DNA of 64,000 nucleotides, from positions 124,001-188,000 of the forward strand of contig CADBBH010000002.1 in NCBI GenBank assembly GCA_902792905.1, written 5' to 3'. Every line of letters starts with the position of its first letter. Position 1 is the stretch's first letter. The notes below the pieces were generated by a model that worked only from the letters and a program-made list of their open reading frames with translations, did not search any database and was not told the DNA's origin. The stretch comes from Oscillospiraceae bacterium. GTDB taxonomy: Bacteria > Bacillota > Clostridia > Oscillospirales > Acutalibacteraceae. The position numbers and the translations under genes were made by a program. This document shows positions 48,914-56,115 of the stretch, piece by piece.

Positions 48914-48969
48914 CTATTAAATATAATTAATATTGGGTTATTATATTCATTTTGAAACGGAGAACTCAT

Positions 48970-49629
48970 ATGATTAAAATTTCACCGTCTGTCCTCGCAA
49001 GCGATTTTTCAAAGCTAGGTTCTGAAGCAATGAGAATGCAGCAGGGTGGAGCTGACTGGCTTCATCTCGATGTTATGGATGGGCATTTTGTCCCGAATAT
49101 CAGTTTCGGAGCACCGGTAATCAAGGCGATACGACCGCTTGTCGATATGGTCTTCGATGTTCATCTTATGATATCTGAGCCGGTTAAATATATTGAGGAT
49201 TTTGTTTCTGCCGGTGCGGATATAATTACTTTTCATTACGAGAGCGATTCTGATACCGATGAAGTTATAGATAAGATTCATTCACTCGGTAAAAAGGCCG
49301 GAATCAGTCTCAAACCCGGTACTCCCGCAAGCGCGGTTTTTCCTTTTCTGAATAAGGTGGAAATGGTGCTTGTGATGACGGTTGAGCCCGGCTTCGGCGG
49401 TCAGTCATTTATGTATGATATGATGGAAAAGGTAACCGCTGTAAGAAACGAAGCCGACAGACTCGGCCTCAATCTTGATATTCAGGTTGACGGCGGCATC
49501 AATAAGGAAACCGTCGCAGTTGCCGCAAAGGCGGGCGCGAATGTATTCGTTGCCGGCAGTGCGGTCTTCAAAGCGGAAAACGCCGCTGAAATGATAAAAA
49601 CTTTAAGGCAGAATGCAAAGACCGAATAA
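48970..49629 (+). CDS. rpe: Ribulose-phosphate 3-epimerase
   Basis: A 219-residue TIM-barrel enzyme interconverting ribulose 5-phosphate and xylulose 5-phosphate, which feeds the split transketolase encoded 4 kb upstream. Diagnostic parts: ISPSVLASDFSKLG, WLHLDVMDGHFVPNISFG with metal-binding His/Asp, DVHLMISEP, MTVEPGFGGQSF and VDGGINKET. ATG 48970 behind CGGAGA is preferred over TTG 48952. It is the first gene of a long tightly packed run on the plus strand. Confidence 0.96.
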   Translation: MIKISPSVLASDFSKLGSEAMRMQQGGADWLHLDVMDGHFVPNISFGAPVIKAIRPLVDMVFDVHLMISEPVKYIEDFVSAGADIITFHYESDSDTDEVIDKIHSLGKKAGISLKPGTPASAVFPFLNKVEMVLVMTVEPGFGGQSFMYDMMEKVTAVRNEADRLGLNLDIQVDGGINKETVAVAAKAGANVFVAGSAVFKAENAAEMIKTLRQNAKTE

Positions 49630-49644
49630 TCCGGAGGTAACCCC

Positions 49645-50607
49645 TTGGCGACCGAAAACAGATCTGCAAATAAAAAATCTTTGAATATTTTCGGCGATTA
49701 TCTGCTGATGCTTATTTTTCCCTGTGTGCTTTCAATCTGGTATTACGGGGCGGCTGCGGTGCGCACTCTCGCGGTCTGTATCGTGACAGGTTTTGTATGC
49801 GACTTTTTCGGCAGCATTATCATATATAAAAAATATTATGCCGCGGATTTAAGTTCCCTTTGCTCGAGTATTATGATTGCGCTTATGATGCCGGCAGATA
49901 TTTCGTTTTATATTCCTATGATCGCATGCGCTTTTTCGGTTTTTGTTATCAAGATTCCGTTCGGAGGCGGAATGAAGGTTCCGTTTGTCCCGGCGGCAGC
50001 AGGTTTTGCGTTTATGGCGGCGTGCTTCAAAGAGGAGATATTTGCCTATACCCCTGGAAGACCGTTTATGACAGGTGTCTCGCTCGGTTCTGCTCTCATG
50101 CACGGCGGCTCAATGAGAATGAACGGAGCTAATATTCTTGATATCATCACCGGCAATATCTGCGGCCCTATGGGCACAGGCTGTATTATTGTATTCGTTG
50201 CGTGCATAGTTTTTCTGCTCTTCCGCAGGAGAGAGGCGCTCCTCGCTACTGCCGGCTTTATCGGCGCGTGTATTCTCTTTGCCCTTCTGCTTCCGCGCTC
50301 GAACGGCAGCCGTATTTCATCCGTGATTATGGAACTCTCCTCAGGTTCACTTATGTTTGCGGCAGTGTTCCTCCTTACGGATTATTCAACCCTTCCCGCT
50401 TCAAAGAGAGATAAGTTGGTTTACGGCGTTTTCTGCGGTATAATCTGCATGTCAATGAGAAAACTCGGCGTATTTGAGGAACCGGTATGTTTCGCAGTTC
50501 TGCTCGCGAACGCATTCAGCCCTCTGCTTGATATATTGACAAGGCGTGTAATGGCTTTCATTACTCCCCGCATAAATAAAGGCAGGGAGGTGGTAGCCGA
50601 TGGATGA
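49645..50607 (+). CDS. RnfD/NqrB-like membrane protein with altered flavin motif
   Basis: A 320-residue multipass protein resembling RnfD. Support: the family-like FGDYLLMLIFPCVLSIWYYG opening, helices throughout, a GMKVPFVPAAAGFAFM segment, and the late FAAVFLLTDYSTLP corresponding to RnfD's FFMATDPVTSP. The loop expected to carry covalent FMN (consensus DxxTxATPL) aligns without gaps to TGVSLGSAL at residues 143-151: the acceptor Thr is Ser149 and the leading Asp is Thr. TTG 49645 follows CCGGAGG. Two more Rnf-like genes follow with overlaps. Homology is likely; function is unknown. Confidence 0.75.
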   Translation: MATENRSANKKSLNIFGDYLLMLIFPCVLSIWYYGAAAVRTLAVCIVTGFVCDFFGSIIIYKKYYAADLSSLCSSIMIALMMPADISFYIPMIACAFSVFVIKIPFGGGMKVPFVPAAAGFAFMAACFKEEIFAYTPGRPFMTGVSLGSALMHGGSMRMNGANILDIITGNICGPMGTGCIIVFVACIVFLLFRRREALLATAGFIGACILFALLLPRSNGSRISSVIMELSSGSLMFAAVFLLTDYSTLPASKRDKLVYGVFCGIICMSMRKLGVFEEPVCFAVLLANAFSPLLDILTRRVMAFITPRINKGREVVADG

Positions 50608-51388
50608 GAATAAACGCTTTTCTTTCAGAGAGGCAATAACCGAGAATCCGGTGCTGTTTCAGTGCGTAGGACTCTGCTCCATTATTGCGGGCACATCCAC
50701 TTTGAAGGATTCGCTTTTCATAGCGGTTATGATTGCTGCAGACCTGATTATTACCTGCACTCTCGCCAGCTTGTTTTTCAAGAAGATACCACGCTACGTG
50801 AGAATCGCTCTCTATCTTGTCATAGGACTCGCGATTATTTATCCCGTGTTATGGTATATTGAAACCCGCACTCTGATTGAAGTTAGTCTAGGTATGAGAA
50901 TTATAATTCCGCTTATAGCCGTCAATTCGGTTACGGCGGTTCACTGCGAGACTTATTCGGTTAAGCACAGTGTCGGTTCAGCTCTTGCAGACGCTCTTTC
51001 CGCCGCGTTCGGCACCGCGCTTGTTGCCGTCATATGCGGAACAATCCGCGAAATCATCGGCAAAGGGACTGTCGGCGGTTATACGCTTGATATGAAGTTT
51101 ACAATGAGCACTATGTCTATGCCGTTCGGATGTCTGGTTCTGCTCGGATTCCTTGCGGCTATAATCAAGGCGCTGATAAGTCTTAACAGAAGGAGCAGAA
51201 ACGTATCCTCAGAGACCGAGGCCCCCGAGCAGCCTGAGGAAATAGATCTCGGCATAGAACAGAGTGAAGCTCCCGAGACGGTCGATATGATAATCGCCGA
51301 TTATGATGATATTGACAGCATTCTCTCTTCCACCGACGAATTCTTAAGAAGCCTCAACGGTTATGAAGACGGAGGTGATGAGCAATGA
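50600..51388 (+). CDS. RnfE/NqrD-like membrane protein, one cluster Cys missing, acidic tail
   Basis: A 262-residue protein of the RnfE/RnfA (NqrD/NqrE) family. ENPVLFQCVGLCSIIA matches the conserved first helix with Cys26. The second conserved Cys, in the VNC motif of the family, is Ser110 here (PLIAVNSVTAVHC), although a non-canonical Cys116 follows. The GTIREIIGKGTVGG loop is strongly RnfE-like. After about residue 195 there is a soluble acidic tail of some 65 residues that RnfE normally lacks. It overlaps the RnfD-like gene by 8 nt and the next by 4 nt. Confidence 0.75.
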   Translation: MDENKRFSFREAITENPVLFQCVGLCSIIAGTSTLKDSLFIAVMIAADLIITCTLASLFFKKIPRYVRIALYLVIGLAIIYPVLWYIETRTLIEVSLGMRIIIPLIAVNSVTAVHCETYSVKHSVGSALADALSAAFGTALVAVICGTIREIIGKGTVGGYTLDMKFTMSTMSMPFGCLVLLGFLAAIIKALISLNRRSRNVSSETEAPEQPEEIDLGIEQSEAPETVDMIIADYDDIDSILSSTDEFLRSLNGYEDGGDEQ

Positions 51389-51969
51389 AAATGATTTCAG
51401 GATTATTGATTACTGCTCTTTACACCGTATTCGTGCAGAATCTTGTCATGACATCGGGCCTCGGTATGAGCGAGGCAATGCGCATATCTCCACGCCCGAA
51501 TACCTTTGTTAAACTGTCTGTTATGATTTCGGGCTTTTCAACCGTGACAAGTATTCTCTGCAATCTGATTGCTTCGCGCACCGCCACGGTTGAATCTTAC
51601 GCGGCAAAGGCACTCATCTACGGCGCCGTACTCGCGAGCGTATATATCGCAGTTGCATTTATAGCTAATATAATAGTCAAAGATAAAGAAATTATCGGTA
51701 TTCTCGGAATCGCGGCGCTCAACACGCTCGTATTTGCCGTGCCGTATATCAATGATTCCGCGGCCTATTCTCTCTTTGACTGCATAGGTTCCGGTCTCGG
51801 CGCGGGCTTCGCATTTGTGCTTGCCGCCGCGCTTATCGGAAGCGGCGCGAGAGTTATCGAAAAAAATAAATATATTCCGCCGATATTCAAGGGAACTCCC
51901 GCGATGTTCTTTTATGTTGCTATGATTTCTCTGGGATTTGTAGGATTCACCGGCACACAATTATTCTGA
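51385..51969 (+). CDS. RnfA/NqrE-like membrane protein lacking both cluster cysteines
   Basis: A 194-residue six-helix protein. VFVQNLVMTSGLGMSEAM aligns with RnfA's NNFVLVQFLGICPFLG, with Ser29 at the Cys position; GIAALNTLVFA aligns with the TNCAVLG motif, with Thr114 at the second Cys. The C-terminus FKGTPAMFFYVAMISLGFVG matches RnfA's FKGxPIxFIxxGLMALAFMGF closely. So the fold is retained while the iron-sulfur ligands are gone. It is the third of three overlapping Rnf-like genes. Confidence 0.75.
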   Translation: MKMISGLLITALYTVFVQNLVMTSGLGMSEAMRISPRPNTFVKLSVMISGFSTVTSILCNLIASRTATVESYAAKALIYGAVLASVYIAVAFIANIIVKDKEIIGILGIAALNTLVFAVPYINDSAAYSLFDCIGSGLGAGFAFVLAAALIGSGARVIEKNKYIPPIFKGTPAMFFYVAMISLGFVGFTGTQLF

Positions 51970-51983
51970 TATTAAGGAAACTT

Positions 51984-52262
51984 ATGAAAAAGAACAGCTA
52001 TAAAAAAGCGCTCAAGCCCTCACAGCGCGAGAGCATAACTGAATATTCTTCCAGATTCGGAATGCTCAAGGGCAATGAAGGTAAGATGCTCGGCAAGAGA
52101 ATCGCGATAATCACAGCGATTGTTGTCTCTGTTCTCGCCCTCATTTATATCGGGTATTTTCTGACCGAAATGATAATCGGAATCACTGAATTACCCGTAG
52201 CAATTCAATTCTTTCCGGAGGAAACCCGAGCATGGATTTTATCCCTTTCAATTCACGGCTGA
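51984..52262 (+). CDS. Small single-pass membrane protein downstream of the Rnf-like genes
   Basis: I do not recognise this 92-residue protein. It has a basic N-terminal cytoplasmic part of about 40 residues (KKNSYKKALKPSQRES...), one strong transmembrane helix (about 38-62, IAIITAIVVSVLALIYIGYF) and a C-terminal stretch with a second weakly hydrophobic part. It starts 14 nt after the RnfA-like gene and overlaps the GH13 start by 31 nt, so it is surely in the same transcript. It may be an accessory subunit of the Rnf-like module. Confidence 0.7.
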   Translation: MKKNSYKKALKPSQRESITEYSSRFGMLKGNEGKMLGKRIAIITAIVVSVLALIYIGYFLTEMIIGITELPVAIQFFPEETRAWILSLSIHG

Positions 52263-54085
52263 GCTGGCATAAATCTCCCTTCGGCGCCGTCGGGAACGGC
52301 ACTGAGGTTACGCTCAGAATAATTCTTCCTGCAGGCTTTTACTGTGAATGGGCGAAGATTATCGTGCATCGCGATGACGAGTGCTTTTCATACCCGATGT
52401 ATTATGAATACACCCAGCAAAACGGTGAAATCTGGTGGCGCGGGAGCTTTATACCCGATAAGCCCGGCCTGTATTTCTATACTTTTCTGCTTATGACCGG
52501 TTACGGTGAAATTCCGATTACCTGTTACGATAATTCCACCGGCAGAATCGCCGCGGGCGGAGGAGAATTTCAGCTGACCGTTTATGATAAGAACTTCAGG
52601 ACTCCCGACGATATAAAGGGTTCTGTAATATATCAGATTTTTCCCGACCGTTTCTGCTTCTCGGGAAATAAGAAGGATAATCCGTTTCCCGAAAGAATCA
52701 TCAGGGATGACTGGGGCGGAGAGCCGCGCTGGAAACCGGATAAAAACGGGAGAATTACTCAGTATGATTTCTTTCAGGGAGATTTTGAGGGTATAAAGAG
52801 CCGCCTGGATTATCTCTCTTCGCTCGGAGTCGGCTATATATATCTGAATCCGATATTTGAGGCTCATTCCAATCACCGGTATGATACGGCGGATTATGAA
52901 AAACCCGATCCTCTTCTGGGTACCGAGAAGGAATTCTCCGAACTCTGCAAAGAGGCTGAATCGCGCGGTATAAAGATTATTCTTGACGGCGTATTCAGCC
53001 ATACAGGGAGCGACAGCATTTATTTTAATAAAGAGGGTCGCTACGGTAACGGCGGAGCATATAACAGTAAAGAATCGCCGTATTACGGCTGGTATAAGTT
53101 CGGCGAATGGCCTGATGAATACGACAGCTGGTGGGGAGTGGATATTCTCCCCGAAATCGACGAGACTGATGACAGCTATATAAAATACATAGGCGGCATT
53201 CTTAAAAAGTGGCAGACGCTCGGCGCAGGCGGCTGGCGGCTGGATGTTGCGGACGAGCTTCCCGATAAATTTCTTGACGCGCTTCGTGAATATGTCAAGT
53301 CACAGGATAATGATGCAATCATCATCGGAGAAGTCTGGGAAGACGCTTCCAATAAAATAAGTTACGGCAGCAGAAGACGATATCTTACCGGCAGGCAGCT
53401 TGATTCGGTTATGAACTATCCCTTCGCCGAGGTGCTTATCAGATTCGGCATTACCGGCACTGCAGAGGGCTTTAACGATAAGATAGCGGAAGTCTGCGAG
53501 AATTATCCGAAATGCGTTGTCGACTGCCTTATGAATCATATCGGCACTCATGATACCTGCCGCGTTCTTAATCGTCTCGGAACTCTTGACTGCTATGTGA
53601 GCGACCCTGTTCATCGTTATAAGGGCGGCCTTGATGATGAGGAACGCGAGAGAGGAATACGCCTTCTTAAACTGATTTCTTCCATGCAGTTCACACTGCC
53701 GGGCGTACCTTGTATCTATTACGGCGATGAAGCCGGGACCGACGGGGGAGTCGATCCCTTCAACAGAGGTTGTTTCCCTTACGGCAGAGAGAACGAAGAA
53801 CTCCTTGCGCATTACCGCCTTTTAGGCAGAATCCGCAGAGAGCATCCCGCCCTCAAAGACGGCGAATTCATTCCGATTTCATCCGTTCTCGGTTGTGTCT
53901 GTTATGAGAGACGAGGCAGGGGAGAGCGGATTATCACGGTTGCTAACAGAAACAGCCATCCCATAGCTTATGCCCTGCCGAATGAGGGCTTCATTTCGCT
54001 GACAGGTCAGCAAGTCAGCGGCAGAGTTATCTATCTTAACGCCGAAGAAACGGCGATTACATATATGAGTTGTGATCGAAAATGA
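52232..54085 (+). CDS. GH13 alpha-amylase family enzyme (neopullulanase/cyclomaltodextrinase-like)
   Basis: A 617-residue glycoside hydrolase. An N-terminal beta-sandwich (about 1-120) precedes the catalytic barrel, which begins VIYQIFPDRF. The catalytic residues are visible: nucleophile Asp338 in GGWRLDVADE, acid/base Glu367 in IIGEVWED and Asp441 in GTHDT. No signal peptide, so it acts on imported maltooligosaccharides or stored glycogen. ATG 52232 follows GGAGG and begins inside the preceding small gene. Exact specificity (neopullulanase, alpha-glucosidase) is not resolvable. Confidence 0.9.
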   Translation: MDFIPFNSRLSWHKSPFGAVGNGTEVTLRIILPAGFYCEWAKIIVHRDDECFSYPMYYEYTQQNGEIWWRGSFIPDKPGLYFYTFLLMTGYGEIPITCYDNSTGRIAAGGGEFQLTVYDKNFRTPDDIKGSVIYQIFPDRFCFSGNKKDNPFPERIIRDDWGGEPRWKPDKNGRITQYDFFQGDFEGIKSRLDYLSSLGVGYIYLNPIFEAHSNHRYDTADYEKPDPLLGTEKEFSELCKEAESRGIKIILDGVFSHTGSDSIYFNKEGRYGNGGAYNSKESPYYGWYKFGEWPDEYDSWWGVDILPEIDETDDSYIKYIGGILKKWQTLGAGGWRLDVADELPDKFLDALREYVKSQDNDAIIIGEVWEDASNKISYGSRRRYLTGRQLDSVMNYPFAEVLIRFGITGTAEGFNDKIAEVCENYPKCVVDCLMNHIGTHDTCRVLNRLGTLDCYVSDPVHRYKGGLDDEERERGIRLLKLISSMQFTLPGVPCIYYGDEAGTDGGVDPFNRGCFPYGRENEELLAHYRLLGRIRREHPALKDGEFIPISSVLGCVCYERRGRGERIITVANRNSHPIAYALPNEGFISLTGQQVSGRVIYLNAEETAITYMSCDRK

Positions 54086-54933
54086 GTAAAAATGTTACAT
54101 TCAGAACGCAGAGAAAATCAAAGAATTCCAATAAAAATAAAATAACAATTATCATAACGCTTGCTCTGCTTCTGCTTGTGTTCGTCTCGTTTTTTGCAGT
54201 GCTTAAAAGCAGCGATTTTGATCTGCGCACCGCACTCGGCGGCGACCCGGGAGTGACGGCAGGAGAGCAGGAAGAGACAAATCAGGTTGAGAAATCCGAC
54301 AGGTGTTTCCTCTTCTGGTGCAAGGATTCCGTTTCGAATGATCTGCAGTTTCTCTGGATTACGAGAATCGTCATGCCAAAGGGCAAATACATAATATATT
54401 CACCGTCGGTTGATGAGAGTATAGAATATCGCGGCGAATACAAATCTATAGGAAACATCTATTATCTTTACGGTATAGAAGGGCTTGAAGAGGCGCTTGA
54501 GCTGTTTTGCAACATTGAGATTATTCATCATATCGGCTCCGATACAGAGGCGTTCAAGCAGATGGTCAACAATTTCGGTTCGGTTACGGTTGAACTTAAT
54601 GAGAGCATTAATTATAAAGGATCATTCAATCTCATCCTCCCGCGCGGCAGCAATGTTATCAAGGGAGATACGCTCTATAAATATCTGGTATATACCAATT
54701 TTAACCATGTTCAGTCTGAAAAACTGCGAGCAGACGCGTTTGAGCAGGTACTGAGAAACGTGATAAATGAGGAAAATACCGACAGTATTGAAAAGATTTA
54801 TTCCCGAATTGCCAATCTATTATATACAGATATAACTATCGTCGGATTTTCTGAAATGCGCAGTTATATCACTGATTTATTCAATACCGGGGTCAAAGAA
54901 GTTGTTGCGGCAACCAAATCCACCCAGATTTAA
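54082..54933 (+). CDS. Degenerate LytR-CpsA-Psr (LCP) domain protein
   Basis: A 283-residue protein with a basic N-terminal tail, one transmembrane helix (about 21-41) and an extracellular LCP-like domain. The pattern GIEGLEEALELFCNIEIIHH followed by DTEAFKQMVNNFGSVTVELN matches the LCP core (GG..L...VE..LGI.I......DFEAF..LVDALGGV.V..). LCP enzymes attach polymers to peptidoglycan, but the conserved Arg-Asp motif after the second strand (PRD) is SPSV here at residues 107-110, so catalysis may be lost. Its ATG overlaps the GH13 stop. Confidence 0.68.
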   Translation: MSKNVTFRTQRKSKNSNKNKITIIITLALLLLVFVSFFAVLKSSDFDLRTALGGDPGVTAGEQEETNQVEKSDRCFLFWCKDSVSNDLQFLWITRIVMPKGKYIIYSPSVDESIEYRGEYKSIGNIYYLYGIEGLEEALELFCNIEIIHHIGSDTEAFKQMVNNFGSVTVELNESINYKGSFNLILPRGSNVIKGDTLYKYLVYTNFNHVQSEKLRADAFEQVLRNVINEENTDSIEKIYSRIANLLYTDITIVGFSEMRSYITDLFNTGVKEVVAATKSTQI

Positions 54934-54948
54934 CCGAGAGGATACGAA

Positions 54949-56115
54949 ATGAAAAAACGAACGGTAATGCTCCTGATAGTTTTCGCCCTCGTCGCAGCGG
55001 CTGTGGGAGTTTTTCAGGTGAAAAACAACTTCCCCGATTTAGAGGCGCCGATTATCAATCGTTACATAGGAGATGTTGAGGAGTCGTCGTCCGGTTCAAG
55101 ATATAAGACTTATTTCTTCGATTTATCGCCTATAGAGAAGCAGGCCTATAATCTTATCCTCGCGGATATTTATAATATGCCCGAGCGGATACTTGTTCCG
55201 GATCTTTCCGAGAAACAGCTCGATGAGGTTTTCAGAGCCCTGCTCAATGATAATCCCGATCTGATTTTTCTCGGACGGAAATGCCGCCTTACCAGCGAAT
55301 TATGGAACAATTACATCTCCTTCGATTATATCATGACAAAAGAGGAGTATGAGCAGGCGGACAGAAAAATCAGAGAGAAGAGAGACCTTATTATCGCTTC
55401 GCTCTCCGATTTAACCGACGAATACCGGTGCGAACTTGAAATTCACGATTATATAATTACAAATTGCATATATGAATTAAAGGATAACGAATACTATTAT
55501 TCTTCTGCATACGGTGCGCTCATCAACGGCAAAGCGGCGTGCGAGGGATACTCCAAGGCGGCAAAGTTCATATTTGACAAGGTCGGTATAGAGAGCGCTC
55601 TTGTCAGCGGAAAAGCGGATTCCGAGGGCAACAAGGGCGGCGACCATATGTGGAATATCGTTAAAATAAACGGTAATTACTATCATCTTGACCTGACTTG
55701 GGATGATCCGGTCAGTAAGAATTCATCCGCAATGAGCATCCATACTTATTTCAATCTTACCGATGAGGCAATAGGCGTCAACCACCGCGATTATTCATAC
55801 AATCCCGGCTGCACCTCGACCGATGAGAATTACTATGTCAAAAACGGCCTGAGATTTGAGAATTACAGCAGAAATAACGAGACAAAGCTGCGCGACCTGA
55901 TGGTAAAGCAGTTCAATGCGGGCGAGAGATGTATCCAGATTAGCTTTGTCAACAAGGAATCCTATGACAGCGCGTTCAAGGATCTTATTACAGACAGCAG
56001 AATTTACAAAGTCTTATCGGGAGTCAAATCTTCAAGAGGAAGCTCGCTCTCAAATTCCCTTACGGGGTATTATGAGGATAAAAGTTTTTATACATTGACT
56101 TTCATTTTCAAATAA
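54949..56115 (+). CDS. Secreted/anchored transglutaminase-like domain protein
   Basis: A 388-residue protein with an N-terminal signal anchor (about 5-23). A transglutaminase/protease-like core has the Cys-His-Asp triad: Cys198 in [13 protein letters not shown], His233 in GGDHMWNIV and Asp248 in [10 protein letters not shown]. Bacterial members are usually peptidases or structural modifiers of the envelope rather than crosslinkers. It stands between the LCP-like gene and the folate genes, which suggests work at the cell surface together with the LCP-like neighbour. Confidence 0.85.

Follow-up and report, generated by a model that had tools for sequence, protein, structure and literature searches.

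The overlapping genes D', E' and A' encode what we are confident is a conserved Rnf membrane core without the Rnf cofactor sites. Judging from sequence, the chances are about even that this core has been neofunctionalised and would work without the Rnf redox chain. The window, meaning the whole stretch of 64,000 nucleotides that was analysed (C2:124001-188000), comes from a 2.07-Mb genome in 24 contigs that is 84% complete. Cores of the kind found there are called silent here, as against canonical Rnf sets.

An earlier note on this DNA had picked out an overlapping trio resembling RnfD, RnfE and RnfA, and the open reading frames lie where it placed them (Table 1). D' and E' overlap by 8 bp and E' and A' by 4 bp. 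D' matches PF03116 (2.8e-54), E' and A' match PF02508 (4.5e-25 and 1.1e-16), and all three align to the chains of solved Rnf complexes, so that the membrane core of Rnf is recognised by both Pfam and PDB sequences. The NCBIfam cut-offs are missed by far, at 122 versus 207 bits for rnfD, 72 versus 213 for rnfE and 43 versus 229 for rnfA. The closest named relatives of D' include a Clostridia MAG from water-buffalo rumen (93%) and an uncultured Clostridia MAG (95% over D' residues 108-320).

Table 1. Positions in the window of the genes at the locus and of the codons discussed in the text
Feature	Position	Strand	Remarks
rpe	48952..49629	+	presumably ribulose-phosphate 3-epimerase (named from sequence); ends 15 bp upstream of D'
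D'	49645..50607	+	RnfD/NqrB homolog, 320 aa, TTG start
D' Ser149	50089-50091		aligned to the residue of FMN attachment
E'	50600..51388	+	RnfE homolog, 262 aa, acidic C-terminal tail
E' Cys26	50675-50677		aligned to RnfE Cys26, kept
E' Ser110	50927-50929		aligned to RnfE Cys109
E' Cys116	50945-50947	+	new cysteine, clade-conserved
A'	51385..51969	+	RnfA homolog, 194 aa
A' Ser29	51469-51471		aligned to RnfA Cys25
A' Thr114	51724-51726		aligned to RnfA Cys113
X	51984..52262	+	92-aa single-TM protein without a Pfam match; starts 14 bp past the end of A'

Ligand positions were read against the Rnf chains of C. tetanomorphum (PDB 7zc6), with the cysteine numbering given in the accessible part of PMC9588780. 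The silent sample from f1, the family of the window, comprised 64 loci (the window, L011-L013 and 60 picked from the matches), which gave 63 rows each for D' and E' and 64 for A', only A' being found at L107. They fall into two architectures, D'E'A' alone (DEA-only, 45 rows, the kind in the window) and mostly C'D'E'A' (CDEA, 18 rows with all three genes). The 22 canonical controls were the own genome, E. coli and 20 others from f1, these 20 being picked among high-scoring PF03116 matches and representing typical canonical Rnf.

The window set retains one of the four cluster cysteines. The reading by eye, in which Ser29 and Thr114 of A' and Ser110 of E' stand in place of ligands and only Cys26 is left, is thus upheld by the alignment to 7zc6. 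The multiple alignment that the earlier note had proposed as a check places these changes across the clade and in none of the 22 controls: at the positions E1, E2, A1 and A2, cysteine is present in 42/63, 0/63, 0/64 and 4/64 silent rows and in 22/22 canonical rows at each of the four. The flavinylation motif had likewise been described as replaced by TGVSLGSAL (D' residues 143-151), and so it is; the canonical controls read (A/S)(T/S)P(L/T/V/M) there, a motif found in the aligned region of all 22 controls and of none of the 63 silent rows. Because the aligned FMN residue is Ser or Thr in only 23 of the 45 DEA-only rows, there is no conserved attachment residue. That the losses are an artefact of alignment by eye is ruled out by the 22 controls, which keep every site.

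Elsewhere in the same genome, profile searches find a complete canonical rnfCDGEAB operon on contig C1; an apbE-like gene (named from sequence) lies near it. D'E'A' is therefore a paralog, a divergent second set. Genome-wide there are one FMN_bind match and one full-length RnfC. The matches to rnfG and rnfB (E 1e-20) lie on C1 only, and rnfC gives the full match on C1 plus two weak matches below cut-off, on C1 and C3. No rnfB, rnfC or rnfG was found in the window, as the earlier note had reported, and full-length matches to them are confined to the canonical operon. An RnfC hidden elsewhere to serve the window set was considered and rejected, since the sole full RnfC belongs to that operon. 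The note had named, as jointly telling against its reading, a separate complete rnf operon and retention of the cluster cysteines and the FMN site; the operon exists, and the residues are not kept.

The three-gene set is conserved among relatives. A match to D' (40-100% identity) occurs in 41 of 45 genomes of the genus, three of which (76-87% complete) have D' without a canonical D; the remaining four (G009, G030, G036, G037) have only a canonical D, judged by score. Silent sets were read in three families of the order. An order-wide search matched 49 of 394 genomes at 1e-15, and the 20 loci read comprised 14 silent ones in f26, one silent in f5 (in a 55% complete genome), one silent in f1 (L201), three canonical (L193, L195, L196) and L194, taken up below. 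In f26 all 14 rows are without Cys at E1 and A1, and likewise at E2 where aligned (there is a gap in L186), and the A2 Cys is kept in seven. By eye none of the 14 has a motif of the ATPL/ASPL type, L200 reading STTPAS, and all 14 genomes also have a canonical-scoring RnfD. In a class-wide search with an f26 A protein, a query close to canonical A, 25 of the matches were read and proved to be mostly canonical A. The three silent ones all come from f26; the other 22, made up of the own genome's canonical A and 21 loci from outside the order, have both A cysteines.

In a concatenated D+E+A tree the 63 silent rows lie on one side of a branch with SH-aLRT support of 100; the 45 DEA-only rows group together with support of 99 and the CDEA rows with 72. 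C' was found at 14 of the 18 CDEA loci. By eye, all 14 C' have two CxxCxxCxxxC motifs, and all 14 are without the GGAGFPT loop of canonical RnfC, which we take to be part of the NADH/FMN site. Across L095-L113 in f1, these cysteine motifs are kept beside a membrane core stripped of its cofactor sites. Four loci were grouped as CDEA without a C' being found (L104, L111, L112 and, at a contig edge, L105). Of these, L104 and L111 form a divergent silent-core pair with neither a C' nor a DUF4015 gene found, and L104 has a DUF368-like gene (by eye) two genes upstream of its core.

Intact frames had led to the view that this is not a simple decayed operon, and the wider sample bears this out. All three genes are open at 63 of the 64 f1 loci (in L012, D' is cut by a contig edge), the silent rows form a clade of their own, and dN/dS is 0.015-0.24 over 33 pairwise gene estimates, many of the pairs showing partial saturation at synonymous sites. 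A lone decayed operon is ruled out by the second rnf set, the genus-wide occurrence of D' and the purifying selection.

The former ligand sites of A' are, moreover, strongly constrained. Over the 45 DEA-only rows the mean entropy of the 18 columns around them is 0.78, versus 1.71 elsewhere (p 2e-5). Canonical RnfA shows the same trend (0.06 around the ligands versus 0.96 elsewhere), and because this region is the most conserved in canonical Rnf too, the low entropy is partly inherited; it is therefore the new invariants that carry the argument for rewriting. The residue at position +1 (Glu30) is Glu in 45/45 DEA-only rows versus Pro in 22/22 canonical ones, that at +4 (Arg33) is Arg in 43/45 versus Gly in 22/22, and the Asn preceding the second ligand position is kept in 45/45 DEA-only rows. 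These invariants around the lost ligands indicate that the A' pocket is rewritten, not decayed. The ligand sites of E' show a weaker trend (1.39 versus 2.00, p 0.0013). Of 19 CDEA rows, 13 have Arg at the +1 position of A', so the subclades would not share a substrate if they had one. Three cysteines are conserved in the DEA-only rows, namely E' Cys26 (39/45) and the new E' Cys116 (44/45) and A' Cys59 (42/45), and this conservation is absent in the CDEA rows.

Silent cores also occur where a canonical RnfD does not appear. In eight f1 genomes PF03116 matches only once, at 170-258 bits; canonical-type matches in that search score 328 or more. Four of them (G146, G094, G212, G120; loci L102, L100, L108, L112; 93-99% complete) were read by residue and are silent, and the PF03116 search found no canonical RnfD in them; the other four (G230, G199, G133, G237) were judged by PF03116 score. 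A search for rnfB at 1e-20 matched 117 of 200 genomes and none of these eight, although it is insensitive, missing G061, G065 and G097 despite their canonical-scoring D. The independence from canonical Rnf thus rests on RnfD. With the losses shared across the clade, the purifying selection, the separate clade and the status of sole RnfD-type core in four genomes, the reading in the earlier note of a redox-silent derivative gains support.

Which part of the core could be at work is suggested by D'. According to the accessible part of PMC9588780, the proposed Na+ path of RnfD runs by Asp248, Asn124 and Asn90 with a hydrophobic gate that includes Phe244. The D' of the window retains the equivalents of Asp248 and Phe244 (Asp246 and Phe242) and has Met81 and Val115 in place of Asn90 and Asn124. 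Among DEA-only rows the gate Phe is present in 42/45 and the Asp248 equivalent in 33/45; the Asn90 position is Met or Leu in 37/45 (Asn in 21/22 canonical rows) and the Asn124 position Val in 35/45 (Asn in 22/22). The CDEA rows keep Asn124 in 15/18. This loss of polar residues of the Na+ path argues against simple Na+ conduction through D' and leads us to favour the rewritten centre of A'E' as the place where the core would work.

The two architectures differ further in the tail of E' past its domain, with a median of 86 aa (range 33-492) in DEA-only rows versus 8.5 (range 2-83) in CDEA rows. Acidic C-terminal tails are seen in the window (51180-51388), in L074-L094 and in L114-L133, and some tails have at their end a short stretch that looks amphipathic and might be a docking peptide. 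A motif for the tail end matched 20/45 rows and was not used.

Among the 80 silent loci read (65 in f1, 14 in f26 and one in f5), the next gene after the core encodes a TM-anchored DUF4015 (PF13200-type) protein in 28, that is, in 14/14 of f26, in the one of f5 (cut by a contig edge) and in 13 of f1; the last are 11 DEA-only loci, one with a short partial match, and two of the 18 CDEA rows. A Pfam run on six next-gene proteins (L091, L109, L183, L184, L185, L191) returned PF13200 for all. In the genus of the window, X is a short TM protein at 21 of 24 loci (the window, L011-L013 and L114-L133), the exceptions being L125, with a long X, and L012 and L116, which gave no clear X; the DUF4015 domain is missing at these short-X loci. 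A short TM protein also stands at the X position in the DEA-only loci L079, L084, L086 and L087. By position and layout, X appears to be the bare anchor of the TM-DUF4015 protein of other lineages. Its topology is that of RnfG, with one TM segment and the domain outside, and X may stand in RnfG's place. The DUF4015/short-anchor neighbour after silent cores is new here.

A recurrent arrangement in f1 runs rpe, divergent mecA-like gene, core, X; it is also seen by eye in f26 and f5, and Pfam confirms MecA at L120. Within f1, rpe lies less than 7 kb away at 47/64 loci and is probably a position marker. After X (window 52232-56115) come GH13-like (named from sequence), LytR_cpsA_psr-like and transglutaminase-like genes, a stretch of envelope/glycan flavour that recurs past X in most of the genus loci read.

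The origin of the silent cores may be glimpsed in the family f3, where 9/9 genomes have one match to the A protein of L194, and all nine loci were read. Three (L214, L216, L218) have the complete C-D-G-E-A-B operon with all cluster cysteines and the D FMN motif, and a DUF4015 gene comes next; L215 is like them up to A, where its contig ends. At the five g171 loci (L194, L212, L213, L217, L219) the T-P-L of the D motif is kept, and of the cluster ligands E2 is Gly in 5/5, A1 and A2 are lost in 5/5 and E1 is kept in 4/5; their RnfC has GGSxxP instead of GGAxFP. No RnfB was found in the operon at L217 and no RnfG in that at L219. Three g171 operons have all of C-D-G-E-A-B, and a DUF4015 gene follows each of the five, as it does 8/9 of the f3 loci (Pfam was run on L194). 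A pattern for the RnfG motif was uninformative, as it matched 4/8 f3 RnfG and missed three intact operons.

An enlarged tree of 86 rows joins the silent clade (52 rows, support 100) to the Rnf of f3 and f17 (96), not to f1 canonical Rnf. The AU test speaks against a derivation of the silent set from f1 canonical rnf (p 0.0175, for a group named post hoc and with long branches). The best tree favours two independent losses of the cluster ligands; because one loss shared by the silent clade and g171 is not rejected (AU p 0.381), we do not claim independent losses. We tentatively propose, at somewhat less than even chances, that a DUF4015-associated Rnf branch in one Clostridia order turned stepwise into a redox-independent membrane machine. 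On this route the A-E cluster ligands would go first, at a stage (that of g171) which still has the FMN motif and, for the most part, B, C and G; B, G and the FMN site would go next, and C last, the cluster pocket meanwhile becoming a new binding site. One A' homolog outside the aligned loci (L161, in G167) has an in-frame TGA.

The most likely reading, and the one we favour, is a redox-independent module linked to the envelope, for transport or for conformational change or signalling; that transport goes through, or is gated by, the A'E' pair is conceivable but falls a little short of probable. The assembly of D', E' and A' would still resemble that of RnfD-E-A. In A' and E', the broken helices in which the cluster once sat would now form a polar or charged centre, with Ser29-Glu30-Arg33 and Asn113-Thr114 of A' and Cys26 and Asn109-Ser110 of E' as its putative residues; this centre might bind a substrate or an ion, with A' and E' acting as an alternating-access pair. 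D' could be related to the ammonium/urea-transporter fold but shut or plugged, and X would lie next to the core, in the place that RnfG takes in Rnf. Points that tell against this reading are the missing DUF4015 domain in the genus of the window, the rarity of a DUF4015 gene after CDEA cores and the presence of canonical Rnf in most carriers.

The long E' tails of DEA-only rows, set against the short ones of CDEA, and the regular presence of a short TM protein at X in the window's genus would suit a scaffold that moves nothing and serves as a platform for X outside and, through the acidic tail, for a cytosolic partner inside. This seems rather unlikely, as it leaves the new charged invariants at the A' ligand site, in the centre of the membrane, unexplained. 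It is less probable still that the core remains redox-active, either through another metal site, for which E' Cys26, E' Cys116 and A' Cys59 would be candidates in DEA-only rows, or by taking electrons from canonical Rnf, which most silent-core carriers also have. Those cysteines are not conserved in CDEA rows, D' is without the FMN motif, and the four inspected genomes have a silent core with no canonical-scoring RnfD and no match in the insensitive rnfB search. Gradual decay, or survival as an inert relic owing to the position beside rpe, would account for the missing B, G and C, for the lone A' at L107 and for the TGA in G167; it is very improbable given the open genes and low dN/dS in f1, the near-universal D' in the genus and the new invariants of the A' pocket.

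A redox-independent core of this kind can be placed beside several known systems. With the Rnf of 7zc6 it shares three homologous membrane subunits, in the D-E-A order of its own genome's rnfCDGEAB, and, for the most part, the gate Phe and the Asp248 equivalent; it differs in being without B, C, G, three of the four cluster cysteines and the FMN motif, and in having new charged residues at the A' site and the neighbour X. In Na+-NQR, NqrB, NqrD and NqrE are homologs of D', E' and A'. As far as the accessible parts of the sources go, NQR has been proposed to stem from an rnf duplication with loss of rnfB (PMC4014512) and retained the core cofactors while gaining NqrF (PMC12174285); D'E'A', by contrast, has lost these sites and has no reductase gene next to it. 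NqrF with NqrA and NqrC is absent beside the set, whose neighbours are rpe, X and the GH13-like, LytR_cpsA_psr-like and transglutaminase-like genes. The NQR/RNF-like flavinylated systems, in what is accessible of PMC8238504, also have an RnfD/NqrB-type protein outside canonical Rnf/Nqr, but with a flavinylation-associated cluster and a D-NqrF fusion, neither of which is at the window locus. RnfD/NqrB is reported to be structurally related to ammonium/urea transporters (PMC12174285, accessible part); D' would be akin to that fold through this kinship and, in difference, still travels with E' and A'. Among the literature matches listed, which are mostly open-access, including the accessible portions of a 2025 review (PMC12174285) and of PMC4014512, there is no report of cores of this kind.

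The accessible part of PMC12174285 sets out several mechanisms by which redox reactions may drive ions in Rnf/Nqr. A natural core without cofactor sites, together with apparent intermediates, would help to distinguish the part that moves ions or solutes from the redox contribution. In practical terms, genes annotated RnfD, RnfE and RnfA may be non-redox paralogs, and counting silent genes can mislead energy models built on Rnf for such Clostridia. More generally, these cores suggest that a part of a respiratory pump has evolved into something that does without electrons.
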